Source of the DNA: Arenicola marina
Lineage: Eukaryota; Annelida; Polychaeta; Arenicolidae
Reading direction: 5' to 3'
DNA length: 64,000 bases
Assembly (NCBI GenBank): GCA_964019135.1
Contig: OZ025252.1
Location: 46,226,959 to 46,290,958, forward strand
Part shown: positions 1 through 64,000 of the stretch, piece by piece
Numbering within the stretch: position 1 is the stretch's first letter
Layout of the letters: every line of letters begins with the position of its first letter
Program-made: the position numbers and the translations under genes
The notes under the pieces: model-generated
Seen by the model: only the letters and a program-made list of their open reading frames with translations
Told to the model about the DNA's origin: nothing
Databases searched by the model: none

Positions 1-99
1 GCTCCGTCTAGTTCATCATCATTCGATGTCAAGCACTGCCATTGTGAAGGGCATTAGAATACTTTATCGGCTGTCGATATCAAGTTAAGTAGCATAGAA
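1..99 (+). promoter_or_regulatory. Leader of unit 1 (initiator and 5' UTR)
   Basis: This is the 3' end of a core promoter cut by the window edge. The initiator-like TCATTC places a candidate transcription start at A21. The TATA box of this unit would lie 12-13 bp left of the window. The start context is GAAATGG (A at -3, G at +4), a good Kozak match. Confidence 0.6.
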
Positions 100-1197
100 A
101 TGGCTCTTGAAGGATGTATGAGATCCCACAATTCGCAGAAGAGCGGTCACCACGCACATGCTGAATATAGCTTGGAGTACTTGAATGCGCACCTGACGTT
201 ATCTTCGGAGTTTGCTGACATTGATATAGACTTCTACATTGACAATATTGTTCACAGCTGTTGGGATCTCATCAATTTAGAGGTGCCTGATTGTAAGCTT
301 TTTACCAGCTCAGAACTCAAGGCACTGGATCACGACCAGCCCAGCTCTACTGACCTGGAAGACGATAAACTATCATTCGCTTCACCACTACACCCGAGTC
401 CCCAATCGTCACCAGTGACGTCCCAACATACTCTGTACAACGTGGCGGAGCCTGATAATGCATCATATGTGGATACGAGTTTCTTGCTTATGGGAAACTG
501 TTACAACCTTCCACAAAGAATAGCCACGCCTTGTCCAGGTCCCCACAACAATTATTTCTTTGACAACATCAGCTACTCTTGTCGAGTAGAGGCTCTGCAG
601 ATTGCAGAACAAGATGATTACATGACCGTTTCTAATGGTGATGATGACCAAACCAAGACGGCAACGGTCAACACGTTGGCCATTCAGCAAAAGCCAACTG
701 ATTCATTCATTGCCATGATAGCTAAGGCCATTATGAGTACATCAGACGGTGAAATGCTTGTGGCTGATATCTATCAATGGATTCTGGACAATTATGCTTA
801 CTATCAGACGACCAAGTGCGCCTGGAGGATCAGCGTTCGTCACAACCTTTCCGTCAACGAGTGTTTCGTCAAGGGGCAACGCAGCAGAAGAAATCGGGGT
901 TTCTATTGGTCCATCCATCCACTATCTGTAGAAGATTTCACCAACGGTTGTTTCCAGAGGCGTCAAGCACGTCGGCGCATCCAGCAGCAGAATCGCTCCC
1001 AATGTGCGTCACAGTCTCAACAGCTGCATGCCATCACTACCAACAGTAGTTACCCAGCATCACAACACACGCCGGGATTCAACGAATGTAAAGATATCAT
1101 TCATGCCACAAAGGCCATGGAACCGATGTGGTCTGATTACTGCCAGGTTCCAGCGATCGCCATCCCGGATGAATACCTTCACCACTTTTCTGTCTAA
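100..1197 (+). CDS. Unit 1: FoxQ2-like forkhead transcription factor (reference copy)
   Basis: This single-exon gene encodes 365 residues, used here for numbering. The N-terminal part (1-197) is acidic and Ser/Thr/Pro-rich. Residues 45-51, FYIDNIV, fit the eh1 motif (FxIxxIL type) that recruits Groucho/TLE corepressors. The forkhead domain spans about 198-293: KPTDSFIAMIAKAIM (helix 1), DIYQWILDNYAYY (helix 2), WRISVRHNLSVNECFVK (242-258, recognition helix), FYWSIHP (strand/wing 1) and a basic RRQARRRI (wing 2). Family members bind DNA as monomers in the nucleus. The recognition-helix Asn that normally follows W-x (WxNSxRH) is Ile244 here. The C-terminal 70 residues are polar and unrecognised. 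FoxQ2 assignment rests on the DNYPYY, NECFVK and YWxIHP signatures and is less certain than membership of the forkhead family. The ATG has a strong context (GAAATGG) and is the first ATG after the leader's initiator region that opens the long frame. Confidence 0.95.
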   Translation: MALEGCMRSHNSQKSGHHAHAEYSLEYLNAHLTLSSEFADIDIDFYIDNIVHSCWDLINLEVPDCKLFTSSELKALDHDQPSSTDLEDDKLSFASPLHPSPQSSPVTSQHTLYNVAEPDNASYVDTSFLLMGNCYNLPQRIATPCPGPHNNYFFDNISYSCRVEALQIAEQDDYMTVSNGDDDQTKTATVNTLAIQQKPTDSFIAMIAKAIMSTSDGEMLVADIYQWILDNYAYYQTTKCAWRISVRHNLSVNECFVKGQRSRRNRGFYWSIHPLSVEDFTNGCFQRRQARRRIQQQNRSQCASQSQQLHAITTNSSYPASQHTPGFNECKDIIHATKAMEPMWSDYCQVPAIAIPDEYLHHFSV

Positions 1198-1308
1198 CTA
1201 ATACAAGAAACTGGTTGTCCTGTGTATAATTTAGCAGTGATTGCCAAGAGTTTGTGTAACATTGTATCGAATATTTCATAACATGCATTGTACATAAGAT
1301 CATCAATC

Positions 1309-1314
1309 AATAAA
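1309..1314 (+). terminator. Polyadenylation signal AATAAA, unit 1 (repeated in every unit)
   Basis: A canonical AATAAA lies 112 bp after the stop codon, in the context CAATCAATAAAA. The hexamer is kept at the same offset in all 29 units, including the pseudogene units, where it must be counted from the ancestral stop. In unit 22 a deletion brings it closer. It sets a short 3' UTR of roughly 130 nt. Confidence 0.8.
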
Positions 1315-2197
1315 AACATTATTTATGCACAATATACATGAATCCTTTCATTCTCTTTGTCCAAATCCATATCATCCAACTCGGCATATATCGAGGAAAA
1401 TGAAGTCAGTAAACTATAACTTAACGACTACGTCCAGCAAACGCCATTTCAATCAAAAAGGCTCCGTTCGATCTATGACGAAATGCCGTATACATTTAGT
1501 AAGAATTAGCATAGCGACTATATACAGCTCAACACGCAAGCACAGATTCTTATGCAGCGTTGTTGTACTCGAAAAACGCCACAGGGCTTCAAAAGGCGTT
1601 ATATATGATCCCCAAATATGTGGGACACCATTTATGCCACGCAAATAAATATGCCGTATGATATGCCGCTACAATGGTAGTATTACATTTGAGTCAATAC
1701 TTTCGCCGACTTCGAGGAATTCGCACACGATCAATGTCATAGCTGTGATCAACACCATTCTTATTTCACGGTATTTGCATATGATATGCCGCCAACGATT
1801 TCATGGTAATGTTCACCCTAATAAATTCAATATGAAACCAAATAGAGTTTCCAAAATATGCGCCTTTTAGTCATATTTAATTTAGTCAACGGTTCTGTGG
1901 CAGGATTCTGTCATCTGTTATATTGTTTTACATCTCCAGTTACGGTTCATCCGTTAGAGCGGAAACCCTTCGAATCCGTGCTGTAGGCAAATGTCATATG
2001 GCACTGTTATAACTAATCATGTCGTCCGTCAAATTTGTGGCACACGTGGTCTTGATACTATTGCAATTAATGTGAGACATTGAGCATCATTCGATTGCTT
2101 GCTGTCACCAACACCTCAAAATACTCAGACGTCAGATGTTAATTAATTGATGTCATCACCTGGCCATGCTCCACCTTTATCGGAATTTGTCAGAAGT

Positions 2198-2209
2198 TAA
2201 TTGCAATTA
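2198..2209. promoter_or_regulatory. Perfect palindrome TAATTGCAATTA, P4-type paired homeodomain site
   Basis: Two inverted TAAT half-sites are separated by 4 bp (TAAT-TGCA-ATTA), the known cooperative dimer arrangement for paired-class homeodomains. It ends 25 bp before the TATA box. The same site sits at ATG-149 to ATG-138 in the other units I checked, except unit 28, where it reads TAATTGCAACTA (60030-60041). Binding is inferred from motif only. Confidence 0.45.
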
Positions 2210-2234
2210 CATTAAATTGACACGAAAAGTGAAG

Positions 2235-2271
2235 TATAAAATGATCTGCTCCGTCTAGTTCATCATCATTC
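2235..2271 (+). promoter_or_regulatory. Core promoter of unit 2: TATAAAA plus initiator TCATTC
   Basis: TATAAAA (2235-2241) starts 33 bp before the A of an initiator-like TCATTC (2266-2271, A at 2268). That is close to the normal 30-31 bp spacing and predicts a 79-nt leader. The arrangement recurs at the same offsets in the units. In units 8, 9, 11-15 and 20 the box reads TCTAAAA. Confidence 0.7.
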
Positions 2272-2346
2272 GATGTCAAGTACTTCCATTGTGAAGGGCA
2301 TTAGAATACTTTTTCGGCTGTCGATATCAAGTTAAGTAGCATAGAA

Positions 2347-3423
2347 ATGGCTCTTGAAGGATGTATGAGATCCCACAATTCGCAGAAGAGCGGTCACCAC
2401 GCACATGCTGAATATAGCTTGGAGTACTTGGAGGCGCACCTGACGCTATCTTCGGAGTTTGCTGACATTGATATAGACTTCTACATTGACAATATTGTTC
2501 ACAGCTGTTGCGATCTCATCAATTTAGAGGTGCCTGATTGTCAGCTTTGTACCAGCTCAGAACTCAAGGCACTGGATCACCACCAGCCCAGCTCTACTGA
2601 CATGGAAGACGATAAACTATCATTCGCTTCACCACTACACCCGAGTCCCCAATCGTCACCAGTGACGTCCCAACATACTCTGTACAACGTGGCGGAGCCT
2701 GATAATGCATCATATGTGGGTACGAGTTTTTTGCTTATGGGAAACTGTTACAACCTTCCCCAAGAAGTAGCCACGCCTTGTCCAGGTCCCCACAACAATT
2801 ATTTCTTTGACAACATCAGCTACTCTTGTCGAGTAGAGGCTCTGCAGATTGCAGAACAAGATGATTACATGACCGTTTCTAATGGTGATGATGACCAAAC
2901 CAAGACGGCAACGGTCAACACGTTGGCCATTCAGCAAAAGCCAACTGATTCATTCATTGCCATGATAGCTAAGGCCATTATGAGTACATCAGACGGTGAA
3001 ATGCTTGTGGCTGATATCTATCAATGGATTCTGGACAATTATGCTTACTATCAGACGACCAAGTGCGCCTGGAGGATCAGCGTTCGTCACAACCTTTCCG
3101 TCAACGAGTGTTTCGTCAAGGGGCAACGCAGCAGAAGAAATCGGGGTTTCTATTGGTCCATTCATCCACTATCTGTAGAAGATTTCACCAACGGTTGTTT
3201 CCAGAGGCGTCAAGCACGTCGGCGCATCCAGCAGCAGAATCGCACCCAATGTGCGTCACAGTCTCAACAGCTGCATGCCATCACTACCGACAGTAGTTAC
3301 CCAGCATCACCACACACCCCGGGATTCAACGAATGTAAAGATATCATTCATGCCACAAAGGCCATGGAACCGATGTGGTCTGATTACTGCCAGGTTCCAG
3401 CGATCGCCATCCCGGATGAATAG
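2347..3423 (+). CDS. Unit 2: FoxQ2-like forkhead protein, C-terminus 7 residues short
   Basis: This copy encodes 358 residues. Codon 359 (TAC, Tyr) is TAG, so the last seven residues (YLHHFSV) are lost; the forkhead domain and FYIDNIV motif are intact. It founds a subgroup with E29, C55, Q66, C68, H79, M86, G125, E140 and V141. The short tail is unlikely to destroy function, because the tail is outside any recognised domain. Confidence 0.93.
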   Translation: MALEGCMRSHNSQKSGHHAHAEYSLEYLEAHLTLSSEFADIDIDFYIDNIVHSCCDLINLEVPDCQLCTSSELKALDHHQPSSTDMEDDKLSFASPLHPSPQSSPVTSQHTLYNVAEPDNASYVGTSFLLMGNCYNLPQEVATPCPGPHNNYFFDNISYSCRVEALQIAEQDDYMTVSNGDDDQTKTATVNTLAIQQKPTDSFIAMIAKAIMSTSDGEMLVADIYQWILDNYAYYQTTKCAWRISVRHNLSVNECFVKGQRSRRNRGFYWSIHPLSVEDFTNGCFQRRQARRRIQQQNRTQCASQSQQLHAITTDSSYPASPHTPGFNECKDIIHATKAMEPMWSDYCQVPAIAIPDE

Positions 3424-4595
3424 CTTCACCACTTTTCTGTCTAACTAATACAAGAAACTGGTTGTCGTGTGTATAATTTAGCAGTGATTGGCAACAGTTT
3501 GTGTAACATTGTATCGAATATTTCATAACATGCATTGTACATAAGATCATCAATCAATAAAAACATTATTTATGCACAATATACATGAATCCCTTCATTC
3601 TCTTCGTCCAAATCCATATCATCCAACTCGGCATATATCGAGGAAAATGAAGTCAGTAAACTATAACTTAACGACTACGTCCAGCAAACGCCATTTCAAT
3701 CAAAAAGGCTCCGTTCGATCTATGACGAAATGCCGTATACATTTAGTAAGAATTAGCATAGCGACTATATACAGCTCAACACGCAAGCACAGATTCTTAT
3801 GCAGCGTTGTTGTACTCGAAAAACGCCACAGGGCTTCAAAAGGCGTTATATATGATCCCCAAATATGTGGGACACCATTTATGCCACGCAAATAAATATG
3901 CCGTATCATATGCCGCTACAATGGTAGTCTAACATTTGAGTCAATACTTTCGCCGACTTCGAGGAATTCGCACACGATCAATGTCATAGCTTTGATCAAC
4001 ACCATTCTTATTTCACGGTATTTGCATATGATATGCCGCCAACGATTTCATGGCAATGTTCACCCTAATAAATTCAATATGAAACCAAATAGAGTTTCCA
4101 AAATATGCGCCTTTTAGTCATATTTAATTTAGTCAACGGTTCTGTGGCAGGATTCTATGTCATCTGTTATATTGTTTTACATCCCCAGTTACGGTTCATC
4201 CGTTAGAGCGGAAACCCTTCGAATCCGTGCTGTAGGCAAATGTCATATGCCACTGTTATAACTAATCATGTCGTCCATCAAATTTGTGCTACACGTGGTC
4301 TTTATACTATTGCAATTAATGTGAGGCATTGAGCATCATTCGATTGCTTGCTGTCACCAACACCTCAAAATACTCAGATGTCAGATGTTAATCAATTGAT
4401 GTCATCACCTGGCCATATTAAACGTTTATCGGAATGTTTCAGAAGTTAATTGCAATTACATTAAATTGACACGAAAAGTGAAGTATAAAATGATCTGCTC
4501 CGTCTAGTTCATCATCATTCGATGTCAAGCACTGCCATTGTGAAGGGCATTAGAATACTTTATCGGCTGTCGATATCAAGTTAAGTAGCATAGAA
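3424..4595 (+). other. Spacer 2: 3' UTR, spacer and promoter of unit 3
   Basis: AATAAA at 3556-3561; TATAAAA at 4484-4490. This is the long spacer form (TTCTATGTCAT). The region upstream of the promoter has a private stretch (CCATATTAAACG near 4412) shared with spacers 4 and 5. The octamer and CACGTG are kept. A 107-codon frame without recognised domain runs 3572-3895. Confidence 0.65.
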
Positions 4596-5693
4596 ATGGC
4601 TCTTGAAGGATGTATGAGATCCCACAATTCGCAGAAGAGCGGTCACCACGCACATGCTGAATATAGCTTGGAGTACTTGAATGCGCACCTGACGTTATCT
4701 TCGGAGTTTGCTGACATTGATATAGACTTCTACATTGACAATATTGTTCACAGCTGTTGGGATCTCATCAATTTAGAGGTGCCTGATTGTAAGCTTTTTA
4801 CCAGCTCAGAACTCAAGGCACTGGATCACGACCAGCCCAGCTCTACTGACCTGGAAGACGATAAACTATCATTCGCTTCACCACTACACCCGAGTCCCCA
4901 ATCGTCACCAGTGACGTCCCAACATACTCTGTACAACGTGGCGGAGCCTGATAATGCATCATATGTGGATACGAGTTTCTTGCTTATGGGAAACTGTTAC
5001 AACCTTCCACAAAGAATAGCCACGCCTTGTCCAGGTCCCCACAACAATTATTTCTTTGACAACATCAGCTACTCTTGTCGAGTAGAGGCTCTGCAGATTG
5101 CAGAACAAGATGATTACATGACCGTTTCTAATGGTGATGATGACCAAACCAAGACGGCAACGGTCAACACGTTGGCCATTCAGCAAAAGCCAACTGATTC
5201 ATTCATTGCCATGATAGCTAAGGCCATTATGAGTACATCAGACGGTGAAATGCTTGTGGCTGATATCTATCAATGGATTCTGGACAATTATGCTTACTAT
5301 CAGACGACCAAGTGCGCCTGGAGGATCAGCGTTCGTCACAACCTTTCCGTCAACGAGTGTTTCGTCAAGGGGCAACGCAGCAGAAGAAATCGGGGTTTCT
5401 ATTGGTCCATCCATCCACTATCTGTAGAAGATTTCACCAACGGTTGTTTCCAGAGGCGTCAAGCACGTCGGCGCATCCAGCAGCAGAATCGCTCCCAATG
5501 TGCGTCACAGTCTCAACAGCTGCATGCCATCACTACCAACAGTAGTTACCCAGCATCACAACACACGCCGGGATTCAACGAATGTAAAGATATCATTCAT
5601 GCCACAAAGGCCATGGAACCGATGTGGTCTGATTACTGCCAGGTTCCAGCGATCGCCATCCCGGATGAATACCTTCACCACTTTTCTGTCTAA
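4596..5693 (+). CDS. Unit 3: FoxQ2-like forkhead protein
   Basis: This copy encodes 365 residues identical to those of unit 1 and lies one 4496-bp super-repeat to its right. All domain features described for unit 1 apply, including Ile244. Confidence 0.95.
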   Translation: MALEGCMRSHNSQKSGHHAHAEYSLEYLNAHLTLSSEFADIDIDFYIDNIVHSCWDLINLEVPDCKLFTSSELKALDHDQPSSTDLEDDKLSFASPLHPSPQSSPVTSQHTLYNVAEPDNASYVDTSFLLMGNCYNLPQRIATPCPGPHNNYFFDNISYSCRVEALQIAEQDDYMTVSNGDDDQTKTATVNTLAIQQKPTDSFIAMIAKAIMSTSDGEMLVADIYQWILDNYAYYQTTKCAWRISVRHNLSVNECFVKGQRSRRNRGFYWSIHPLSVEDFTNGCFQRRQARRRIQQQNRSQCASQSQQLHAITTNSSYPASQHTPGFNECKDIIHATKAMEPMWSDYCQVPAIAIPDEYLHHFSV

Positions 5694-6842
5694 CTAATAC
5701 AAGAAACTGGTTGTCCTGTGTATAATTTAGCAGTGATTGCCAAGAGTTTGTGTAACATTGTATCGAATATTTCATAACATGCATTGTACATAAGATCATC
5801 AATCAATAAAAACATTATTTATGCACAATATACATGAATCCTTTCATTCTCTTTGTCCAAATCCATATCATCCAACTCGGCATATATCGAGGAAAATGAA
5901 GTCAGTAAACTATAACTTAACGACTACGTCCAGCAAACGCCATTTCAATCAAAAAGGCTCCGTTCGATCTATGACGAAATGCCGTATACATTTAGTAAGA
6001 ATTAGCATAGCGACTATATACAGCTCAACACGCAAGCACAGATTCTTATGCAGCGTTGTTGTACTCGAAAAACGCCACAGGGCTTCAAAAGGCGTTATAT
6101 ATGATCCCCAAATATGTGGGACACCATTTATGCCACGCAAATAAATATGCCGTATGATATGCCGCTACAATGGTAGTATTACATTTGAGTCAATACTTTC
6201 GCCGACTTCGAGGAATTCGCACACGATCAATGTCATAGCTGTGATCAACACCATTCTTATTTCACGGTATTTGCATATGATATGCCGCCAACGATTTCAT
6301 GGTAATGTTCACCCTAATAAATTCAATATGAAACCAAATAGAGTTTCCAAAATATGCGCCTTTTAGTCATATTTAATTTAGTCAACGGTTCTGTGGCAGG
6401 ATTCTGTCATCTGTTATATTGTTTTACATCTCCAGTTACGGTTCATCCGTTAGAGCGGAAACCCTTCGAATCCGTGCTGTAGGCAAATGTCATATGGCAC
6501 TGTTATAACTAATCATGTCGTCCGTCAAATTTGTGGCACACGTGGTCTTGATACTATTGCAATTAATGTGAGACATTGAGCATCATTCGATTGCTTGCTG
6601 TCACCAACACCTCAAAATACTCAGACGTCAGATGTTAATTAATTGATGTCATCACCTGGCCATGCTCCACCTTTATCGGAATTTGTCAGAAGTTAATTGC
6701 AATTACATTAAATTGACACGAAAAGTGAAGTATAAAATGATCTGCTCCGTCTAGTTCATCATCATTCGATGTCAAGTACTTCCATTGTGAAGGGCATTAG
6801 AATACTTTTTCGGCTGTCGATATCAAGTTAAGTAGCATAGAA
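5694..6842 (+). other. Spacer 3: 3' UTR, spacer and promoter of unit 4
   Basis: AATAAA at 5805-5810; TATAAAA at 6731-6737. It appears identical to spacer 1 (short form). Confidence 0.65.
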
Positions 6843-7919
6843 ATGGCTCTTGAAGGATGTATGAGATCCCACAATTCGCAGAAGAGCGGTCACCACGCAC
6901 ATGCTGAATATAGCTTGGAGTACTTGGAGGCGCACCTGACGCTATCTTCGGAGTTTGCTGACATTGATATAGACTTCTACATTGACAATATTGTTCACAG
7001 CTGTTGCGATCTCATCAATTTAGAGGTGCCTGATTGTCAGCTTTGTACCAGCTCAGAACTCAAGGCACTGGATCACCACCAGCCCAGCTCTACTGACATG
7101 GAAGACGATAAACTATCATTCGCTTCACCACTACACCCGAGTCCCCAATCGTCACCAGTGACGTCCCAACATACTCTGTACAACGTGGCGGAGCCTGATA
7201 ATGCATCATATGTGGGTACGAGTTTTTTGCTTATGGGAAACTGTTACAACCTTCCCCAAGAAGTAGCCACGCCTTGTCCAGGTCCCCACAACAATTATTT
7301 CTTTGACAACATCAGCTACTCTTGTCGAGTAGAGGCTCTGCAGATTGCAGAACAAGATGATTACATGACCGTTTCTAATGGTGATGATGACCAAACCAAG
7401 ACGGCAACGGTCAACACGTTGGCCATTCAGCAAAAGCCAACTGATTCATTCATTGCCATGATAGCTAAGGCCATTATGAGTACATCAGACGGTGAAATGC
7501 TTGTGGCTGATATCTATCAATGGATTCTGGACAATTATGCTTACTATCAGACGACCAAGTGCGCCTGGAGGATCAGCGTTCGTCACAACCTTTCCGTCAA
7601 CGAGTGTTTCGTCAAGGGGCAACGCAGCAGAAGAAATCGGGGTTTCTATTGGTCCATTCATCCACTATCTGTAGAAGATTTCACCAACGGTTGTTTCCAG
7701 AGGCGTCAAGCACGTCGGCGCATCCAGCAGCAGAATCGCACCCAATGTGCGTCACAGTCTCAACAGCTGCATGCCATCACTACCGACAGTAGTTACCCAG
7801 CATCACCACACACCCCGGGATTCAACGAATGTAAAGATATCATTCATGCCACAAAGGCCATGGAACCGATGTGGTCTGATTACTGCCAGGTTCCAGCGAT
7901 CGCCATCCCGGATGAATAG
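6843..7919 (+). CDS. Unit 4: FoxQ2-like forkhead protein, C-terminus 7 residues short
   Basis: This copy encodes 358 residues identical to those of unit 2, including the TAG at codon 359. Two copies of this allele flanking near-identical spacers show that the truncated form was duplicated together with its neighbour. Confidence 0.93.
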   Translation: MALEGCMRSHNSQKSGHHAHAEYSLEYLEAHLTLSSEFADIDIDFYIDNIVHSCCDLINLEVPDCQLCTSSELKALDHHQPSSTDMEDDKLSFASPLHPSPQSSPVTSQHTLYNVAEPDNASYVGTSFLLMGNCYNLPQEVATPCPGPHNNYFFDNISYSCRVEALQIAEQDDYMTVSNGDDDQTKTATVNTLAIQQKPTDSFIAMIAKAIMSTSDGEMLVADIYQWILDNYAYYQTTKCAWRISVRHNLSVNECFVKGQRSRRNRGFYWSIHPLSVEDFTNGCFQRRQARRRIQQQNRTQCASQSQQLHAITTDSSYPASPHTPGFNECKDIIHATKAMEPMWSDYCQVPAIAIPDE

Positions 7920-9091
7920 CTTCACCACTTTTCTGTCTAACTAATACAAGAAACTGGTTGTCGTGTGTATAATTTAGCAGTGATTGGCAACAGTTTGTGT
8001 AACATTGTATCGAATATTTCATAACATGCATTGTACATAAGATCATCAATCAATAAAAACATTATTTATGCACAATATACATGAATCCCTTCATTCTCTT
8101 CGTCCAAATCCATATCATCCAACTCGGCATATATCGAGGAAAATGAAGTCAGTAAACTATAACTTAACGACTACGTCCAGCAAACGCCATTTCAATCAAA
8201 AAGGCTCCGTTCGATCTATGACGAAATGCCGTATACATTTAGTAAGAATTAGCATAGCGACTATATACAGCTCAACACGCAAGCACAGATTCTTATGCAG
8301 CGTTGTTGTACTCGAAAAACGCCACAGGGCTTCAAAAGGCGTTATATATGATCCCCAAATATGTGGGACACCATTTATGCCACGCAAATAAATATGCCGT
8401 ATCATATGCCGCTACAATGGTAGTCTAACATTTGAGTCAATACTTTCGCCGACTTCGAGGAATTCGCACACGATCAATGTCATAGCTTTGATCAACACCA
8501 TTCTTATTTCACGGTATTTGCATATGATATGCCGCCAACGATTTCATGGCAATGTTCACCCTAATAAATTCAATATGAAACCAAATAGAGTTTCCAAAAT
8601 ATGCGCCTTTTAGTCATATTTAATTTAGTCAACGGTTCTGTGGCAGGATTCTATGTCATCTGTTATATTGTTTTACATCCCCAGTTACGGTTCATCCGTT
8701 AGAGCGGAAACCCTTCGAATCCGTGCTGTAGGCAAATGTCATATGCCACTGTTATAACTAATCATGTCGTCCATCAAATTTGTGCTACACGTGGTCTTTA
8801 TACTATTGCAATTAATGTGAGGCATTGAGCATCATTCGATTGCTTGCTGTCACCAACACCTCAAAATACTCAGATGTCAGATGTTAATCAATTGATGTCA
8901 TCACCTGGCCATATTAAACGTTTATCGGAATGTTTCAGAAGTTAATTGCAATTACATTAAATTGACACGAAAAGTGAAGTATAAAATGATCTGCTCCGTC
9001 TAGTTCATCATCATTCGATGTCAAGCACTGCCATTGTGAAGGGCATTAGAATACTTTATCGGCTGTCGATATCAAGTTAAGTAGCATAGAA
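7920..9091 (+). other. Spacer 4: 3' UTR, spacer and promoter of unit 5
   Basis: AATAAA at 8052-8057; TATAAAA at 8980-8986. It appears identical to spacer 2. Confidence 0.65.
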
Positions 9092-10189
9092 ATGGCTCTT
9101 GAAGGATGTATGAGATCCCACAATTCGCAGAAGAGCGGTCACCACGCACATGCTGAATATAGCTTGGAGTACTTGAATGCGCACCTGACGTTATCTTCGG
9201 AGTTTGCTGACATTGATATAGACTTCTACATTGACAATATTGTTCACAGCTGTTGGGATCTCATCAATTTAGAGGTGCCTGATTGTAAGCTTTTTACCAG
9301 CTCAGAACTCAAGGCACTGGATCACGACCAGCCCAGCTCTACTGACCTGGAAGACGATAAACTATCATTCGCTTCACCACTACACCCGAGTCCCCAATCG
9401 TCACCAGTGACGTCCCAACATACTCTGTACAACGTGGCGGAGCCTGATAATGCATCATATGTGGATACGAGTTTCTTGCTTATGGGAAACTGTTACAACC
9501 TTCCACAAAGAATAGCCACGCCTTGTCCAGGTCCCCACAACAATTATTTCTTTGACAACATCAGCTACTCTTGTCGAGTAGAGGCTCTGCAGATTGCAGA
9601 ACAAGATGATTACATGACCGTTTCTAATGGTGATGATGACCAAACCAAGACGGCAACGGTCAACACGTTGGCCATTCAGCAAAAGCCAACTGATTCATTC
9701 ATTGCCATGATAGCTAAGGCCATTATGAGTACATCAGACGGTGAAATGCTTGTGGCTGATATCTATCAATGGATTCTGGACAATTATGCTTACTATCAGA
9801 CGACCAAGTGCGCCTGGAGGATCAGCGTTCGTCACAACCTTTCCGTCAACGAGTGTTTCGTCAAGGGGCAACGCAGCAGAAGAAATCGGGGTTTCTATTG
9901 GTCCATCCATCCACTATCTGTAGAAGATTTCACCAACGGTTGTTTCCAGAGGCGTCAAGCACGTCGGCGCATCCAGCAGCAGAATCGCTCCCAATGTGCG
10001 TCACAGTCTCAACAGCTGCATGCCATCACTACCAACAGTAGTTACCCAGCATCACAACACACGCCGGGATTCAACGAATGTAAAGATATCATTCATGCCA
10101 CAAAGGCCATGAAACCGATGTGGTCTGATTACTGCCAGGTTCCAGCGATCGCCATCCCGGATGAATACCTTCACCACTTTTCTGTCTAA
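9092..10189 (+). CDS. Unit 5: FoxQ2-like forkhead protein
   Basis: This copy encodes 365 residues and differs from units 1 and 3 only by E341K in the C-terminal tail. It marks the right edge of the identical block: its coding region belongs to the unit 1/3 type while its downstream spacer carries many private changes. Confidence 0.95.
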   Translation: MALEGCMRSHNSQKSGHHAHAEYSLEYLNAHLTLSSEFADIDIDFYIDNIVHSCWDLINLEVPDCKLFTSSELKALDHDQPSSTDLEDDKLSFASPLHPSPQSSPVTSQHTLYNVAEPDNASYVDTSFLLMGNCYNLPQRIATPCPGPHNNYFFDNISYSCRVEALQIAEQDDYMTVSNGDDDQTKTATVNTLAIQQKPTDSFIAMIAKAIMSTSDGEMLVADIYQWILDNYAYYQTTKCAWRISVRHNLSVNECFVKGQRSRRNRGFYWSIHPLSVEDFTNGCFQRRQARRRIQQQNRSQCASQSQQLHAITTNSSYPASQHTPGFNECKDIIHATKAMKPMWSDYCQVPAIAIPDEYLHHFSV

Positions 10190-54607: not shown

Positions 54608-54944
54608 ATGGCTCTTGAAGGATGTATGAGATCCCACAATTCGCAGAAGAGCGGTCACCACGCACATGGTGAATATAGCTTGGAGTACCAACGGTTGTTT
54701 CCAGAGACGTCAAGCACGTCGGCGCATCCAGCAGCAGAATCGCACACAATGTGCGTCACAGTCTCAACAGCTGCATGCCATCACTACCAACAGTAGTTAC
54801 CCAGCATCACAACACACCCCGGGATTCAACGAATGTAAAGATATCATTCATGCCACAAAGGCCATGGAACCGATGTGGTCCGATTACTCCCAGGTTCCAG
54901 CGATCGCCATCCCGGATGAATACCTTCACCACTTTTCTGTCTAA
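54608..54944 (+). pseudogene. Unit 25: deletion pseudogene lacking the whole forkhead domain
   Basis: A 761-bp internal deletion joins codon 27 (GAGTAC) to the CAACGGTTG at the end of the domain (junction near 54688, AC shared by both sides). The eh1-like motif and the domain are both gone and the frame is shifted, giving a 62-codon frame to 54796. The original tail frame is still open to 54944. Promoter, leader and AATAAA remain. The GAGACG and CACACAATG variants in the 3' part match unit 16. Confidence 0.93.
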
Positions 54945-56096
54945 CTAATACAAGAAACTGGTTGTCCTGTGTATAATTTGGCTGTGATTGCCAAGAGTTT
55001 GTGTAACATTGTATCGAATATTTCATAACATGCATTGTACATAAGATCATCAATCAATAAAAACATTATTTATGCACAATATACATGAATCCCCTCATTC
55101 TCTTCATCCAAATCCATATCATCCAACTCAGCATATATCGAGGAAAATGAAGTCAGTAAACTATAACTTAACGACTACGTCCAGCAAACGCCATTTCAAT
55201 CAAAGAAAATCTGTTCGATGTATGACAAAATGCCGAATACATTTAGTAAGAATTACCATAGCGACTAATTACAGCTCAACACGCAAGCACAGATTCTTAT
55301 GCAGCGTTGTTGTACTCGAAAAACGCCACAGGGCTTCAAAAGGCGTTATATATGATCCCCAAATATGTGTGACACTATATATGCCCCGCAAATAAATATG
55401 CCGTATGATATGCCGCTACAATGGTAGTATTACATTTGGGTCAATACTTTCGCCGACTTCGCGGAATACTCACCCGATCAATGTCATAGCTTTGATCAAC
55501 ACCATTTTTATTTCAAGGTATTTGCATATGATATGCCGCCTACCATTTCATGGTAATGTTCACCCTAATAAATTCAATATGAAACCAAACAGAGATTCCA
55601 AAATATGCGCCTTTTAGTCATATTTAATTTAGTCAACGGTTCTGTGGCAGGATTCTATGTCATCTGTTATATTGTTTTACATCTCGAAATACGGTTCATC
55701 CGTTAGAGCGGAAACCCTTCGAATCCGTCCTGTAGGCAAATGTCATATGCCACTGTTGAAACAAATCATGTCGTTCGTCAAATTTGTGGCACACGTGGTC
55801 TTTATACTATATGCAATTAATGTGAGGCATTGAGCATCATTCGATTGCTTGCTGTCACCAACACCTCAAAATACTCAGATGTCAGATGTTAATTAATTGA
55901 TGTCATCACCTGGCCATGCTCAACGTTTATCGGAATGTGTCAGAAGTTAATTGCAATTACATTAAATTGACACGAAAAGTGAAGTATAAAATGATCTGCT
56001 CCGTCTAGCTCATCATCATTCGATGTCAAGTACTCCCATTGTAAAGGGCATTAGAATACTTTTTCGGCTGTCGATATCAAGTTAAGTAGCATAGAA
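54945..56096 (+). other. Spacer 25: 3' UTR, spacer and promoter of unit 26
   Basis: AATAAA at 55056-55061; TATAAAA at 55985-55991. It is nearly identical to spacer 24. Confidence 0.6.
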
Positions 56097-56433
56097 ATGG
56101 CTCTTGAAGGATGTATGAGATCCCACAATTCGCAGAAGAGCGGTCACCATGCACATGGTGAATATAGCTTGGAGTACCAACGGTTGTTTCCAGAGACGTC
56201 AAGCACGTCGGCGCATCCAGCAGCAGAATCGCACACAATGTGCGTCACAGTCTCAACAGCTGCATGCCATCACTACCAACAGTAGTTACCCAGCATCACA
56301 ACACACCCCGGGATTCAACGAATGTAAAGATATCATTCATGCCACAAAGGCCATGGAACCGATGTGGTCTGATTACTCCCAGGTTCCAGCGATCGCCATC
56401 CCGGATGAATACCTTCACCACTTTTCTGTCTAA
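56097..56433 (+). pseudogene. Unit 26: same deletion pseudogene as unit 25
   Basis: It has the same 761-bp deletion and junction (near 56177), so units 25 and 26 arose by duplication of one deleted unit (period 1488-1489 bp). The 62-codon first frame ends at 56285. Confidence 0.93.
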
Positions 56434-57584
56434 CTAATACAAGAAACTGGTTGTCCTGTGTATAATTTAGCAGTGATTGCCAAGAGTTTGTGTAACATTG
56501 TATCGAATATTTCATAACATGCATTGTACATAAGATCATCAATCAATAAAAACATTATTTATGCACAATATACATGAATCCCTTCATTCTCTTCGTCCAA
56601 ATCCATATCATCCAACTCGGCATATATCGAGGAAAATGAAGTCAGTAAACTATAACTTAACGACTACGTCCAGCAAACGCCATTTGAATCAAAAAGGCTC
56701 CGTTCGATCTACGACGAAATGCCGTATACATTTAGTAAGAATTAGAATAGCGACTAATTACAGCTCAACACGCAAGCACAGATTCTTATGCAGCGTTGTT
56801 GTACTCGAAAAACGCCACAGGGCTTCAAAAGGCGTTACATATTATCCCCAAATATGTGTGACACCATATATGCCCCGCAAATAAATATGCCGTATGATAC
56901 GCCGCTACGATGGTAGTATTACATTTGAGTCAATACTTTCGCCGACTTCGCGAAATTCTCACCCGATCAATGTCATAGCTTTGATTAACACCATTCTTAT
57001 TTCACGGTATTTGCATATGATATGCCGCCTACGATTTCATGGTAATGTTCACCCTTATAAATTCAATATGAGACCAAATAGAGTTTCCAAAATATGCGCC
57101 TTTTAGTCATATTTAATTTAGTCAACGGTTCTGTGGCAGGATTCTATGTCATCTGTTATAATGTTTTACATCCCCAGTTACGGTTCATCCGTTAGAGCGG
57201 AGACCCTTCGAATCCGTCCTGTAGGCAAATGTCATATGCCACTGTTATAACTAATCATGTCGTCCGTCAAATTTGTGGCACACGTGGTCTTTATACTATT
57301 GCAATTAATGTGAGGCATTGAGCATCATTCGATTGCTTGCTGTCACCAACACCTCAAAATACTCAGACGTCAGATGTTAATTAATTGATGTCATCACCTG
57401 GCCATGCTCAACGTTTATCGGAATTTGTCAGAAGTTAATTGCAATTACATTAAATTGACACGAAAAGTGAAGTATAAAATGATCTGCTCCGTCTAGCTCA
57501 TCATCATTCGATGTCAAGTACTCCCATTGTAAAGGGCATTAGAATACTTTTTCGGCTGTCGATATCCATTTAAGTAGCATAGAA
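56434..57584 (+). other. Spacer 26: 3' UTR, spacer and promoter of unit 27
   Basis: AATAAA at 56545-56550; TATAAAA at 57473-57479. The leader has ATATCCATTTAAG where others have ATATCAAGTTAAG, just before the ATG. Confidence 0.6.
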
Positions 57585-59028
57585 ATGGCTCTTGAAGGAT
57601 GTATGAGATCCCACAATTCGCAGAAGAGCGGTCACCACGCACATGGTGAATATAGCTTGGAGTACTTGGAGGCGCACCTGACGCTATCTTCGGAGTTTCC
57701 TGACATTGATATAGACTTCTACATTGACAATATTGTTGGTTTGGTTTAAACATATTTTTATTAAGCAATTAGAAATCAGGCAAAGCCTATACAAATTCCT
57801 CTTGCTGAGGTACGTAGTCACACAACTGTTGAGAATATAGAAATGTCAAAACTCGTGTAATATAAATTGTAGAACGATAAACTAGGTTATCTAAACCAGG
57901 GTATCAGTAGTTGTGAACAAAAGGTAAAGTAACTAAATGATTACACACAGGGTCAGTCCGATATACAGCCATGTTATTAATTTTATATAATATGATTAGA
58001 TATCAAAACGTTTACTCTTGGCTATAAACTCGTGGACCGCGACACAAATGTCAGCGTTTACATCAAACGGAGACAATATTGTTCACAGCTGTTGCGATCT
58101 CATCAATTTAGAGGTGCCTGATTGTAAGCTTTTTACCAGCTCAGAACTCGAGGCACTGGATCACGACCAGCCCAGCTCTACTGACCTGGAAGACGATAAA
58201 ATATCATTCGCTTCGCCACTACACCGGAGTCCCCAATCGTCACCAGTGACGTCCCAACATATTCTGTACAACGTGGCGGAGCCTGATAATGCATCATATG
58301 TGGATACGAGTTTCTTGCTTATGGGAAACTGTTACAACCTTCCACAAGAAATAGCCACGCCTTGTCCAGGTCCCCACAAAAATTATTTCTTTGACAACAT
58401 CAGCTACTCTTGTCGAGTAGAGGCTCTGCAGATTGCAGAACAAGATGATTACATGACCGTTTCTAATGGTGATGATGACCAAACCAAGACGGCAACGGTC
58501 AACACGTTGGCCATTCAGCAAAAGCCAACTGATTCATTCATTGCCATGATAGCTAAGGCCATTATGAGTACATCAGACGGTGAAATGCTTGTGGCTGATA
58601 TCTATCAATGGATTCTGGACAATTATCCTTACTATCACACGAACAAGTGCGCCTGGAGGATCAGCGTTCGTCACAACCTTTCCGTCAACGAGTGTTTCGT
58701 CAAGGGGCAACGCAGCAGAAGAAATCGGGGTTTCTATTGGTTCATCCATCCACTATCTGTAGAAGATTTCACCAACGGTTGTTTCCAGAGGCGTCAAGCC
58801 CGTCGGCGCATCCAGCAGCAGAATCGCACCCAATGTGCGTCACAGTCTCAACAGCTGCATGCCATCACTACCGACAGTAGTTACCCAGCATCACAACACA
58901 CCCCGGGATTCAACGAATGTAAAGATATCATTCATGCCACAAAGGCCATGAAACCGATGCGGTCTGATTTCTCCCAGGTTGCAGCGATCGCCATCCCGGA
59001 TAAATGCCTTCACAACTTTTCTGTCTAA
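57585..59028 (+). CDS. Unit 27: forkhead gene with 334-bp insertion, mosaic of two subgroups
   Basis: If spliced as exon 57585-57738, intron 57739-58072 and exon 58073-59028 it encodes 369 residues with DNIV doubled. Unspliced, the frame stops at 57747-57749 and an internal ATG at 58048 would give a shortened protein. Exon 1 (G21, P39) resembles units 16/17; from about codon 74 it matches unit 29 (E74, I91, R99, I111, K150, Q236H, T238N, R344), so a recombination point lies near 58095-58150. No stop or frameshift follows the insertion. Confidence 0.72.
57738..58071. mobile_element. 334-bp introner-like insertion in unit 27
   Basis: Third copy of the insertion, same site and 12-bp direct repeats (57726-57737, 58072-58083), with a few substitutions (TTATTAAGC where units 16 and 17 have TTATCAAGC). 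It is separated from the other two by nine units, so it arrived by recombination between units. Confidence 0.75.
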
Positions 59029-60178
59029 CTAATGCAAGAACCTGGTTGTCCTGTGTATAATTTAGCAGTGATAGGCAACAGTTTGTGTAACATTGTATCG
59101 AATATTTCATAACATGCATTGTACATAAGATCATCAATCAATAAAACATTATTTATGCACAATATACATGAATCCCCTCATTCTCTTCATCCAAATCCAT
59201 ATCATCCAACTCAGCATATATCGAGGAAAATGAAGTCAGTAAACTATAACTTAACGACTACGTCCAGCAAACGCCATTTCAATCAAAGAGGATCCGTTCG
59301 ATGTATGACAAAATGCCGTATACATTTAGTAAGAATTAGCATAGCGACTAATTACAGCTCAACACGCAAGCACAGATTCTTATGCAGCGTTATTGTACTC
59401 GAAAAACGCCACAGGGCTTCAAAAGGCGTTATATATGATCCCCAAATATGTGGGACACCGTTTATGCCCCGCAAATAAATATGCCGTATGATATGCCGCT
59501 ACAATGGTAGTATTACATTTGAGTCAATACTTTCGCCGACTTCGAGGAATTCGCACACGACCAATGTCATAGCTTTGATCAACACCATTCTTATTTCACG
59601 GTATTTGCATATGATATGCCGCCTACGATTTCATGGTAATGTTCACCCTAATAAATTCAATATGAAACCAAATAGAGTTTCCCAAATATGCGCCTTTTAG
59701 TCATATTTAATTTAGTCAACGGTTCTGTGGCAGGATTCTATGTCATCTGTTATATTGTTTTACATCCCCAGTTACGGTTCATCCGTTAGAGCGGAAACCC
59801 TTCGAATCCGTGCTGTAGGCAAATGTCATATGCCACTGTTATAACTAATCATGTCGTCCGTCAAATTTTTGGCACACGTGGTCTTTATACTATTGCAATT
59901 AATGTGAGGCATTGAGCATCATTCGATTGCTTGCTGTCACCAACACCTCAAAATACTCAGATGTCAGATGTTAATTAATTGATGTCATCATCTGGCCATG
60001 CTCAACGTTTATCGGAATGTGACAGAAGTTAATTGCAACTACATTAAATTGACACGAAAAGTGAAGTATAAAATGATCTGCTCCGTCTAGTTCATCATCA
60101 TTCGATGTCAAGCACTCCCATTGTGAAGGGCATTAGAATACTTTTTCGGCTGTCGATATCAAGTTAAGTAGCATAGAA
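59029..60178 (+). other. Spacer 27: 3' UTR, spacer and promoter of unit 28
   Basis: AATAAA at 59140-59145; TATAAAA at 60067-60073. The palindrome before the TATA box is broken (TAATTGCAACTA, 60030-60041). TTTCCCAAATATG and ACGACCAATGTC are shared with spacer 28. Confidence 0.6.
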
Positions 60179-61216
60179 ATGGCTCTTGAAGGATGTATGA
60201 GATCCCACAAGTCGCAGAAGAGCGGTCACCACGCACATGCTGAATATAGCTTGGAGTACTTGGAGGCGCACCTGACGCTATCTTCGGAGTTTTCTGACAT
60301 TGATATAGACTTCTACATTGACGAGATTGTTCACAGCTGTTGGGATCTCATCAATTTAGAGGTGCCTGATTGTAAGCTTTTTACCAGCTCAGAACTCAAG
60401 GTACTGGATCACGACCAGCCCAGCTCTACTGACCTGGAAGACGATAAACTATCATTCGCTTCACCACTACACCCGAGTCCCCAATCGTCACCAGTGACGT
60501 CCCAACATACTCTGTACAACGTGGCGGAGCCTGATAATGCATCATATGTGGATACGAGTTTCTTGCTTATGGGAAACTGTTGCAACCTTCCACAAGAAGT
60601 AGCCACGCCTTGTCCAGGTCCCCACAACAATTATTTCTTTGACAACATCAGCTACACTCGTCGAGTAGACCCTCTGCAGATTGCAGAACAATGTGATTAC
60701 ATGACCGTTTCTAATGGTGATGATGACCAAACCAAGACGGCAACGGTCAACCCGTTGGCCATTCAGCAAAAGCCAACTGATTCATTCATTGCCATGATAG
60801 CTAAGGCCATTATGAATACATCAGACGGTGAAATGCTTGTGGCTGATATCTATCAATGGATTCTGGACAATTATCCTTACTATCAGACGACCAAGTGCGC
60901 CTGGAGGATCAGCGTTCGTCACAACCTTTCCGTCAACGAGTGTTTCGTCAAGGGGCAACGCAGCAGAAGAAATCGGGGTTTCTATTGGTTCATCCATCCA
61001 CTATCTGTAGAAGATTTCACCAACGGTTGTTTCCAGAGGCGTCAAGCCCGTCGGCGCATCCAGCAGCAGAATCGCACCCAATGTGCGTCACTGTCTCAAC
61101 AGCTGCATGCCATCACTACCGACAGTAGTTACCCAGCATCACAACACACCCCGGGATTCAACGAATGTAATAATAATCATTCATGCCACAAAGGCCATGA
61201 AACCGATGTGGTCTGA
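60179..61216 (+). CDS. Unit 28: forkhead protein with frameshifted C-terminus
   Basis: This copy encodes 345 residues with the same AATGTAATAATAATC gain and short NNNHSCHKGHETDVV ending as unit 20; the ancestral stop is at 61275-61277. The eh1-like motif is FYIDEIV. The linker just before the domain has several private changes (S160T, C161R, E164D, A165P, D172C, T192P) and helix 1 ends with S213N, suggesting relaxed constraint. Confidence 0.86.
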   Translation: MALEGCMRSHKSQKSGHHAHAEYSLEYLEAHLTLSSEFSDIDIDFYIDEIVHSCWDLINLEVPDCKLFTSSELKVLDHDQPSSTDLEDDKLSFASPLHPSPQSSPVTSQHTLYNVAEPDNASYVDTSFLLMGNCCNLPQEVATPCPGPHNNYFFDNISYTRRVDPLQIAEQCDYMTVSNGDDDQTKTATVNPLAIQQKPTDSFIAMIAKAIMNTSDGEMLVADIYQWILDNYPYYQTTKCAWRISVRHNLSVNECFVKGQRSRRNRGFYWFIHPLSVEDFTNGCFQRRQARRRIQQQNRTQCASLSQQLHAITTDSSYPASQHTPGFNECNNNHSCHKGHETDVV

Positions 61217-62428
61217 TTACTCCCAGGTTGCAGCGATCGCCATCCCGGATGAATACCTTCACCACTTTTCTGTCTAACTAATACAAGAAACTGGTTGTCC
61301 TGTGTATAATTTAGCAGTGATTGCCAAGAGTTTGTGTAACATTGTATCGAATATTTCATAACATGCATTGTACATAAGATCATCAATCAATAAAACATTA
61401 TTTATGCACAATATACATGAATCCCCTCATTCTCTTCATCCAAATCCATATCATCCAACTCAGCATATATCGAGGAAAATGAAGTCAGTAAACTATAACT
61501 TAACGACTACGTCCAGCAAACACCATTTCAATCAAAGAGGATCCGTTCGATGTATGACAAAATGCCGTATACATTTAGTAAGAATTAGCATAGCGACTAA
61601 TTACAGCTCAACACGCAAGCACAGATTCTTATGCAGCGTTATTGTACTCGAAAAACGCCACAGGGCTTCAAAAGGCGTTATATATGATCCCCAAATATGT
61701 GGGACACCGTTTATGCCCCGCAAATAAATATGCCGTATGATATGCCGCTACAATGGTAGTATTACATTTGAGTCAATACTTTCGCCGACTTCGAGGAATT
61801 CGCACACGACCAATGTCATAGCTTTGATCAACACCATTCTTATTTCACGGTATTTGCATATGATATGCCGCCTACGATTTCATGGTAATGTTCACCCTAA
61901 TAAATTCAATATGAAACCAAATAGAGTTTCCCAAATATGCGCCTTTTAGTCATATTTAATTTAGTCAACGGTTCTGTGGCAGGATTCTATGTCATCTGTT
62001 ATATTGTTTTACATCCCCAGTTACGGTTCATCCGTTAGAGCGGAAACCCTTCGAATCCGTGCTGTAGGCAAATGTCATATGCCACTGTTATAACTAATCA
62101 TGTCGTCCGTAAAAATTTTTTGCACACGTGGTCTTTATACTATTGCAATTAATGTGAGGCATTGAGCATCATTCGATTGCTTGCTGTCACCAACACCTCA
62201 AAATACTCAGATGTCAGATGTTAATTAATTGATGTCATCACCTGGCCATGCTCAACGTTTATCGGAATGTGACAGAAGTTAATTGCAATTACATTAAATT
62301 GACACGAAAAGTGAAGTATAAAATGATCTGCTCCGTCTAGTTCATCATCATTCGATGTCAAGCAATCCCATTGTGAAGGGCATTAGAATACTTTATCGGC
62401 TGTCGATATCAAGTTAAGTAGCATAGAA
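61217..62428 (+). other. Spacer 28: ancestral tail, 3' UTR, spacer and promoter of unit 29
   Basis: AATAAA at 61389-61394; TATAAAA at 62317-62323. It is nearly identical to spacer 27, but has CCGTAAAAATTTTTTGC near 62107 where others have CCGTCAAATTTGTGGC. Confidence 0.6.
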
Positions 62429-63526
62429 ATGGCTCTTGAAGGATGTATGAGATCCCACAATTCGCAGAAGAGCGGTCACCACGCACATGCTGAATATAGC
62501 TTGGAGTACTTGGAGGCGCACCTGACGCTATCTTCGGAGTTTGCTGACATTGATATAGACTTCTACATTGACGATATTGTTCACAGCTGTTGGGATCTCA
62601 TCAATTTAGAGGTGCCTGATTGTAAGCTTTTTACCAGCTCAGAACTCGAGGCACTGGATCACGACCAGCCCAGCTCTACTGACCTGGAAGACGATAAAAT
62701 ATCATTCGCTTCGCCACTACACCGCAGTCCCCAATCGTCACCAGTGACGTCCCAACATATTCTGTACAACGTGGCGGAGCCTGATAATGCATCATATGTG
62801 GATACGAGTTTCTTGCTTATGGGAAACTGTTACAACCTTCCACAAGAAATAGCCACGCCTTGTCCAGGTCCCCACAAAAATTATTTCTTTGACAACATCA
62901 GCTACTCTTGTCGAGTAGAGGCTCTGCAGATTGCAGAACAAGATGATTACATGACCGTTTCTAATGGTGATGATGACCAAACCAAGACGGCAACGGTCAA
63001 CACGTTGGCCATTCAGCAAAAGCCAACTGATTCATTCATTGCCATGATAGCTAAGGCCATTATGAGTACATCAGACGGTGAAATGCTTGTGGCTGATATC
63101 TATCAATGGATTCTGGACAATTATCCTTACTATCACACGAACAAGTGCGCCTGGAGGATCAGCGTTCGTCACAACCTTTCCGTCAACGAGTGTTTCGTCA
63201 AGGGGCAACGCAGCAGAAGAAATCGGGGTTTCTATTGGTTCATCCATCCACTATCTGTAGAAGATTTCACCAACGGTTGTTTCCAGAGGCGTCAAGCCCG
63301 TCGGCGCATCCAGCAGCAGAATCGCACCCAATGTGCGTCACAGTCTCAACAGCTGCATGCCATCACTACCGACAGTAGTTACCCAGCATCACAACACACC
63401 CCGGGATTCAACGAATGTAAAGATATCATTCATGCCACAAAGGCCATGAAACCGATGCGGTCTGATTTCTCCCAGGTTGCAGCGATCGCCATCCCGGATA
63501 AATGCCTTCACAACTTTTCTGTCTAA
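62429..63526 (+). CDS. Unit 29: FoxQ2-like forkhead protein
   Basis: This copy encodes 365 residues and is the only uninterrupted, full-frame copy right of unit 19. It has FYIDDIV, E74, I91, R99, I111, K150, P233, Q236H and T238N before the recognition helix, F271, and the tail variants K341, R344, F347, A351, K358, C359 and N362 (ending ...DKCLHNFSV). Its body is the likely source type for exon 2 of unit 27. Confidence 0.93.
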   Translation: MALEGCMRSHNSQKSGHHAHAEYSLEYLEAHLTLSSEFADIDIDFYIDDIVHSCWDLINLEVPDCKLFTSSELEALDHDQPSSTDLEDDKISFASPLHRSPQSSPVTSQHILYNVAEPDNASYVDTSFLLMGNCYNLPQEIATPCPGPHKNYFFDNISYSCRVEALQIAEQDDYMTVSNGDDDQTKTATVNTLAIQQKPTDSFIAMIAKAIMSTSDGEMLVADIYQWILDNYPYYHTNKCAWRISVRHNLSVNECFVKGQRSRRNRGFYWFIHPLSVEDFTNGCFQRRQARRRIQQQNRTQCASQSQQLHAITTDSSYPASQHTPGFNECKDIIHATKAMKPMRSDFSQVAAIAIPDKCLHNFSV

Positions 63527-64000
63527 CTAATGCAAGAACCTGGTTGTCCTGTGTATAATTTAGCAGTGATAGGCAACAGTTTGTGTAACATTGTATCGAA
63601 TATTTCATAACATGCATTGTACATAAGATCATCAATCAATAAAACATTATTTATGCACAATATACATGAATCCCCTCATTCTCTTCATCCAAATCCATAT
63701 CATCCAACTCAGCATATATCGAGGAAAATGAAGTCAGTAAACTATAACTTAACGACTACGTCCAGCAAACGCCATTTCAATCAAAGAGGATCCGTTCGAT
63801 GTATGACAAAATGCCGTATACATTTAGTAAGAATTAGCATAGCGACTAATTACAGCTCAACACGCAAGCACAGATTCTTATGCAGCGTTATTGTACTCGA
63901 AAAACGCCACAGGGCTTCAAAAGGCGTTATATATGATCCCCAAATATGTGGGACACCGTTTATGCCCCGCAAATAAATATGCCGTATGATATGCCGCTAC
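63527..64000 (+). other. Spacer 29, cut by the window end
   Basis: AATAAA at 63638-63643, then the anonymous 119-codon version of the spacer frame (63617-63976), extended because one A is missing after AATAAAA. Nothing else is recognised before the window ends. Confidence 0.6.

Follow-up and report, generated by a model that had tools for sequence, protein, structure and literature searches.

Why would an annelid genome carry dozens of near-identical copies of one transcription-factor gene, when genes for regulatory transcription factors are usually present singly or in a few copies? The question is raised by a stretch of 64,000 nucleotides of Arenicola marina DNA (the window; contig OZ025252.1), located by genome search at C5 46,226,959-46,290,958 of the 867-Mb assembly and filled with tandem units that carry a gene for a predicted forkhead protein. 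We propose, at a probability of about 0.5, that this array is a dosage amplification of a short-transcript repressor for early zygotic use, a reading in which expression, timing, repression and the benefit of dosage are all things that we infer.

Alignment of unit 1 to the window located 29 unit starts, all on the + strand and arranged head to tail with nothing between units, and the array overruns both window ends, as a first-pass annotation of the window had described. The unit period is ∼2,247 bp (2,247-2,249 bp in most window units), the aligned pieces are 95.7-100% identical to unit 1, and the frame starts with MALEGCMR in 29/29 units. Units 1-15 differ pairwise by 2.2% on average and units 16-29 by 3.1%; 29 copies at this divergence exclude a chance origin. 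Tandem Repeats Finder gave no listing for the array, because its maximum period is 500 bp. The multicopy array recognised by the first-pass annotation is real, although the window holds only a third of it. In the 210 kb read around the window (0 N, as in the window itself), the array spans C5 46,126,536-46,321,846, ∼195 kb with all units on the + strand. It comprises 84 units with an aligned start codon, of which 51 have the full 365-amino-acid frame and 57 a frame of at least 358 amino acids. Damage is concentrated in the units of the right edge, and these also have the most private changes. Among the 112 of 352 candidates scored, no close copy of the window gene lay outside the C5 array.

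The class of the encoded protein was examined in a maximum-likelihood tree of 54 forkhead domains, from which 33 of 62 compared proteins were left out, along with 6 of 22 domains from the genome that were near-duplicates in the C9 and C8 groups. The window protein falls in a 31-row clade (support 100/99) with the gene at C8:23.156 Mb, two fish proteins, C9, C11 and C19 genes and a protein of the annelid Lamellibrachia, while the FoxA, C, D, G, H, K, L2, M, P and Q1 rows lie outside. Two smaller trees, without 13 of the 62 proteins (P0033, a fungal protein and 11 FoxP copies), gave the same grouping (88/97 and 94/97). We take the canonical-looking C8:23.156 Mb gene and the two fish rows to be FoxQ2. 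The tree, which had been suggested as a check against the FOX classes, places the protein inside FOX and bears out the earlier FoxQ2-like call; a FoxQ2-like identity is supported, with the class taken from tree position beside rows presumed to be FoxQ2, no row being labelled FoxQ2 in the databases. Outside the domain the sequence is less conserved: the best relative, P0035, is a 196-amino-acid fragment (77% over 54% of the window protein) that shares 89/94 residues in the domain, 15/29 before it and 47/68 after it. In the AlphaFold2 model, predicted local distance difference test (pLDDT) values are 86-97 over amino acids 201-300, with little else of the protein modelled confidently. NCBIfam, a prokaryote library, gave no family for the protein.

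The recognition helix comprises amino acids 241-252 of this model. The third place of its W-x-N-S-x-R-H motif is asparagine in 8/9 Protein Data Bank domains compared and aspartate in FoxH1. The helix could be read in 61 of the 62 proteins (P0033 was unreadable), and this position is isoleucine in the window protein, P0035 and P0058, serine in P0002, valine in P0014 and asparagine in the other 56. Isoleucine is present in all 70 readable rows of the 73 full-size C5 units, the remainder being two gaps and one unit that runs into flanking DNA. A second array on C19, described below, has the usual asparagine (PWRNSVRHNLS in 13/15 sampled units). The core contacts of the helix are described as strictly conserved, with this asparagine bonded in bidentate fashion to the adenine that is invariant in RYAAAYA; yeast FHL1, which has serine at the position, is specific for a different site (PMC7062188). 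The window protein lacks this asparagine, a mark of RYAAAYA readers, and we predict from the replaced residue that the C5 factor has an altered DNA specificity. The five proteins without asparagine form a clade both when the column is kept (92/83) and in the 54-domain tree (96/98). With the column masked, P0020, which has the asparagine, falls among the five (87/94); their forming a single clade is not rejected (p 0.399).

N-terminal to the domain lies an EH1-like motif. Its strict pattern, F-x-[ILVM]-[DEN]-x-[IL]-[ILVM], occurs in 5/62 proteins: the window protein, P0038, a FoxQ1-like protein and the two fish proteins; the matches in the other four are presumably ordinary EH1 motifs. The pattern is kept in 72/73 full-size C5 units with variation at the free positions (FYIDNIV 40, FYIDDIV 25, FYIDEIV 5, FFIDDIV 2 and FYIDDIA 1), and no key residue of the motif is at a variable site in the window. 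An EH-i-like motif, N- or C-terminal, is reported as a trait of part of FoxQ2 (PMC12828049, PMC9539403). The motif of the window protein probably recruits Groucho, and of the repression proposed earlier, this conserved motif is the sole support.

The forkhead gene of a unit reads as one uninterrupted 365-amino-acid frame with no intron in the domain. The first-pass annotation called it intronless, which is not special, as clade I Fox genes generally lack introns in the forkhead domain (PMC9539403). Its further view, that every unit has its own promoter, frame and polyadenylation signal, holds for the AATAAA (29/29) and not for the other two: a full frame is present in 14/29 units and TATAAAA in 20 of the 28 TATA boxes within the window, the other 8 being TCTAAAA. 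Across the whole array, the position 112 bp upstream of the start is TATAAAAT in 65/84 units, TCTAAAAT in 17 and TGTAAAAT in 1, with a shifted TATAA in 1. Besides the 14 frames of 365 amino acids, one window unit has 364 and two have 358, and the remaining 12 are more damaged; 23/29 encode the entire forkhead domain and the EH1-like motif. The damage includes a 334-bp insertion in three units, a ∼760-bp deletion in two and a stop within the domain in one, and one frameshift is common to units 19, 22, 23 and 24. Since identical insertions, deletions and frameshifts recur in several units, damage is inherited by copying. The broken units and the replaced asparagine go unmentioned in the first-pass annotation, and the other arrays of the genome lie outside its view. 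The ratio of observed to expected CpG is 1.32 and 1.08 between genes and 0.72 in the frame (window units).

Amplification of the forkhead family recurs in this genome, which has two further forkhead arrays. A Pfam forkhead scan, in which the best 150 of 327 candidates were scored, revealed an array of another FoxQ2-like gene at C19 12,960,754-13,217,117 (- strand, step ∼2,488 bp). It has at least 95 forkhead domain matches, counted by hand among matches that favour good copies, and none has an internal stop. The C19 gene encodes 472 amino acids; among 15 full units read, with a mean divergence of 2.4%, 13 encode 472, one encodes 479 and one stops at 153 owing to a frameshift. The third array, at C8 23.52-23.67 Mb, has 26 full-length matches of a 386-amino-acid forkhead gene (20 at 89-100% identity and 6 at 65-69%), 20/26 of them stop-free, in ∼5-kb units where one 386-amino-acid gene alternates with one broken copy (e.g. 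23.575-23.585 Mb). This gene groups with a single gene at C8:32.04 Mb beside FoxA-type rows, and is therefore not FoxQ2. A homeodomain control (150/768 candidates scored) showed no regular array of such size. Separately, nine FoxQ2-like forkhead matches in both orientations are spread over 0.5 Mb at C9 29.06-29.58 Mb. Homeodomain matches also cluster at C17 21.61-21.83 Mb (27 in mixed orientation, 8 with internal stops) and at C14 3.09-3.13 Mb (five alike within 37 kb), with short runs elsewhere too.

How the C5 units stay alike was examined in the 73/84 units of 2,150-2,260 bp. The last of these (46,321,202) was left out as it runs into flanking retroelement DNA, and the remaining 72 were divided into a core (59 units before 46,260,701) and an edge (13 units). 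At 154 informative sites in 26 full window units, at least 31 recombination events were detected, and 3,510/11,781 site pairs failed the four-gamete test. The nearest relative of a core unit lies 2 places away for 13 units and 15-17 places away for 22. Seven unit pairs, 2 or 15-18 places apart, are identical, and window positions 1-5,615 equal 4,497-10,111 exactly (a 5,615-bp duplication). These distances point to exchange of dimers and of ∼35-40-kb blocks. Units farther from the array ends diverge less from the consensus (Spearman -0.30, p 0.010, 72 units), and a core unit has on average 2.3 private changes vs 15.1 for an edge unit; both this gradient and the excess at the edge are predictions of unequal crossing-over.

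Selection was assessed from the ratio of nonsynonymous to synonymous alleles (N/S), scaled to the spectrum of mutations in noncoding DNA of the same units; p values are nominal, for four regions in each of four sets. In the forkhead part of the C5 core there are 18 nonsynonymous alleles vs 35.9 expected and 11 synonymous vs 11.0 (ratio 0.50, p 0.078), and in that of the 15 C19 units 8 vs 24.0 and 9 vs 8.1 (ratio 0.30, p 0.020). The N-terminal halves gave 0.99 (C5 core) and 0.98 (C19), and the tails 2.15 (p 0.33) and 4.38 (p 0.027), the C19 tail being enriched in replacements. In the C19 sample, 14/15 units are open over 472 or 479 amino acids, and stop alleles number 0 vs 7.8 expected. For the window's 29 units the ratios show no constraint (domain 0.88, frame 1.15). 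Variable sites are nevertheless rarer in the domain than in noncoding DNA, both in the window units (26/282 vs 213/1,149, p 0.0001) and in the 14 intact units (14/282 vs 123/1,149, p 0.002). The statistics suggest a modest constraint, confined to the domain and to core units.

In the mechanism that we favour, a FoxQ2-derived intronless gene would have spread through unequal crossing-over, and exchange keeps the 195-kb array homogeneous. An intact unit would approximate a complete short transcription unit, with a TATA box (in most), a leader of ∼0.1 kb or less, a 1.1-kb frame and an AATAAA. It encodes a forkhead protein whose N-terminal part has an EH1-like motif and whose recognition helix is divergent. 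With dozens of such templates, all short and free of splicing, a single repressor could be produced fast and in quantity during a brief period, most likely that of first zygotic transcription. Short units that need no splicing and have their own core promoter would fit brief cell cycles; in Drosophila, most early zygotic genes are reported to be intronless (PMC3989599). In C. elegans, genes with early, high-rate expression are described as short, intron-poor and often recently duplicated regulators, and early paralogs may sum to a needed dose (PMC10446496). The first zygotic genes of the annelid Owenia include many of its expanded foxQ2 genes, whose expression goes up at the maternal-to-zygotic transition (PMC12550047), so that the early zygotic burst suggested by the first-pass annotation is plausible. 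A more far-reaching version, offered tentatively and as doubtful, is that forkhead arrays are machinery of first zygotic transcription, and that the C5 FoxQ2 lineage lost its reading of the canonical RYAAAYA core, gained a new target through its isoleucine and was then amplified to enforce it.

Several results weigh against this early zygotic dosage reading. The core limits were set after locating where the broken units begin. When the 72 C5 units are taken together, the ratio for the domain comes to 0.96 (p 0.88), and the 13 edge units by themselves give 1.40 (p 0.54); whole-frame ratios are approximately neutral (0.93 in the core, 1.15 over the 72 units and 0.99 in C19). Many copies need not matter, as 15/29 window units lack a full frame, and TATA is altered in 18/84 array units. 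Canonical forkhead, homeodomain and OTX sites are not enriched upstream compared with shuffles: canonical forkhead sites number 3 vs 2.5, TAATTA 4 vs 1.3 (p 0.13) and the POU octamer 1 (p 0.16), with no GTAAACA, FHL or OTX match. The incomplete frames and neutral ratios would be expected of a macrosatellite with an incidental gene, whose copy number would be inflated by unequal exchange to little or no benefit, and in which only one or a few units would be at work, as in D4Z4/DUX4. The copying of broken units (the insertion in three, the deletion in two) and the large block duplications speak for it too. Such a macrosatellite does not readily account for a shortage of amino-acid changes in the domain only, found in both arrays, or for the open frames and missing stop alleles of C19, and on C5 the majority of units (51/84) are full length with the damage concentrated at the right edge. 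We judge it an unlikely explanation, though one to be taken seriously.

Use in the germ line, with arrays that load oocytes with the factor or that are ampliconic genes in germ-line conflict, like Slx/Sly in mice, appears rather improbable. It would also account for fast divergence and a changed recognition helix, and it fits the rapid divergence from P0035 outside the domain and the replacement-rich C19 tail. In the Pacific oyster, FoxQ2 is an oocyte gene, and its message falls in the embryo (PMC3348941, PMC4232546), which argues for maternal, not zygotic, use; set against it is the zygotic activation of the expanded foxQ2 genes of an annelid (PMC12550047). That repeated or collapsed contigs raise the copy number is very improbable. 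The exact 5,615-bp duplication and the seven identical pairs could be taken as signs of such an assembly artefact, but core units differ by 2.2% on average and each edge unit has ∼15 private changes. The array also has edges of its own and 0 N, and the spacing of the identical pairs is mixed (2, 15, 16, 17 and 18 units), unlike that of one copied block.

Table 1. Positions of the array units and of selected elements within the window
Feature	Position	Strand	Remarks
Forkhead domain, unit 1	688..936	+	Pfam PF00250, amino acids 197-279; E 1.1e-26
Codon 244 (Ile)	829..831	+	place of the base-reading Asn; alignment to 1VTN, helix table
EH1-like motif FYIDNIV, unit 1	232..252	+	amino acids 45-51; strict pattern
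AATAAA, unit 1	1309..1314	+	after the frame; kept in 29/29 window units
TATAAAA	2235..2241	+	112 bp upstream of unit 2 ATG
334-bp insertion, unit 16	33896..34229	.	12-bp target duplication; directly after EH1-like codons
5′ untranslated part (tail) of unit begun upstream of window	1..99	+	97% match to unit positions 2149-2247
Unit 1	100..2346	+	365-amino-acid frame intact
Unit 2	2347..4595	+	358-amino-acid frame
Unit 3	4596..6842	+	intact; identical to unit 1
Unit 4	6843..9091	+	358 amino acids; identical to unit 2
Unit 5	9092..11340	+	intact
Unit 6	11341..13587	+	intact
Unit 7	13588..15836	+	intact
Unit 8	15837..18085	+	intact
Unit 9	18086..20332	+	intact
Unit 10	20333..22581	+	intact
Unit 11	22582..24828	+	stop after amino acid 257, within forkhead domain
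Unit 12	24829..27075	+	intact
Unit 13	27076..29322	+	intact
Unit 14	29323..31569	+	intact
Unit 15	31570..33742	+	frame intact; 77-bp deletion in intergenic part
Unit 16	33743..36336	+	disrupted by insertion
Unit 17	36337..38930	+	unit-16 insertion at 36490-36823
Unit 18	38931..41176	+	364 amino acids, one codon lost
Unit 19	41177..43426	+	365 amino acids; two compensating frameshifts in tail
Unit 20	43427..45668	+	345 amino acids; tail frameshift
Unit 21	45669..47916	+	304 amino acids
Unit 22	47917..50111	+	339 amino acids; tail frameshift
Unit 23	50112..52358	+	339 amino acids; tail frameshift
Unit 24	52359..54607	+	339 amino acids; tail frameshift
Unit 25	54608..56096	+	∼760-bp deletion takes out most of frame and domain
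Unit 26	56097..57584	+	same ∼760-bp deletion as unit 25
Unit 27	57585..60178	+	unit-16 insertion at 57738-58071
Unit 28	60179..62428	+	345 amino acids; tail frameshift
Unit 29	62429..64000	+	365-amino-acid frame intact; unit continues beyond window

Some further features of the units and flanks were recorded. The target duplication of the 334-bp insertion is nearly palindromic and, by eye, the insertion has imperfect inverted ends. In units 17 and 27, an ATG near the end of the insertion opens a 326-amino-acid frame that keeps the forkhead domain (Pfam, unit 17). Each consensus unit has the word ATATGCCG four times, in intergenic DNA at unit positions 1227-2137. It was rejected as an upstream signal: its 4 occurrences compare with 0.05 in shuffles, but it was picked post hoc as the commonest word, and an 8-mer of equal or higher frequency turned up in 11/500 shuffles. 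The word was not found between the C19 array genes. The right flank of the C5 array has reverse-transcriptase frames, and the left flank (C5 46.1209-46.1220 Mb) is a repetitive sequence in which three frames are open and an amino-acid pattern recurs. Within the array, ∼6 kb of retroelement-like sequence is inserted in one unit (C5 46,299,558-46,305,517); Pfam found no domain in the two of its frames tested.

Lineage-specific FoxQ2 expansions are described in spiralians, with 11 genes in Owenia and 13 in Paraescarpia (PMC9539403, PMC12828049). The highest published count that we found is the 13 of one annelid (PMC12828049), compared with 84 FoxQ2-like copies, at least 95 domain matches of another such gene and a third forkhead array here. 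In the literature searched, with preprints and most subscription papers outside its scope, there was no forkhead array of this kind. Multicopy regulator arrays are already known; within that literature, the family, the scale, the repeated origin in one genome and the altered helix are new. The arrays make it testable whether embryos use template number against short cell cycles. The replaced asparagine gives a concrete prediction of DNA specificity in a family whose core contacts are described as strictly conserved (PMC7062188), and the C5 and C19 arrays let concerted evolution under selection be studied in two replicates within a single genome.

The C5 gene resembles the FoxQ2 class in the clade of its domain, its intronless frame, an EH1-like motif that some members share and a known tendency to tandem duplication. 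In contrast to FoxQ2 expansions of about a dozen paralogs, there are tens of near-identical, homogenised copies in one 195-kb array, and unlike the class, the C5 protein has isoleucine for the base-reading asparagine. Like sea-urchin hbox12/pmar1/micro1, an early regulator, it is a multicopy regulator with copies alike. Those genes number 6 to 22 copies per individual by quantitative PCR and are homeobox genes with one intron, often in divergent or two-gene head-to-tail clusters (PMC5370098). The C5 array, unlike hbox12/pmar1, is a regular one-strand forkhead array and several times larger. D4Z4/DUX4 likewise consists of tandem units, each with a transcription-factor frame. The C5 array shares with it the kilobase scale of the units, which in C5 are homogenised by exchange. 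D4Z4/DUX4 has been linked to zygotic genome activation (PMC12376486, PMC8350899), and in disease it is transcribed from its distal-most unit (PMC8350899). Unlike D4Z4/DUX4, the C5 array encodes an unrelated factor, its intergenic CpG is not depleted (observed/expected 1.08-1.32) and each window unit has its own AATAAA.

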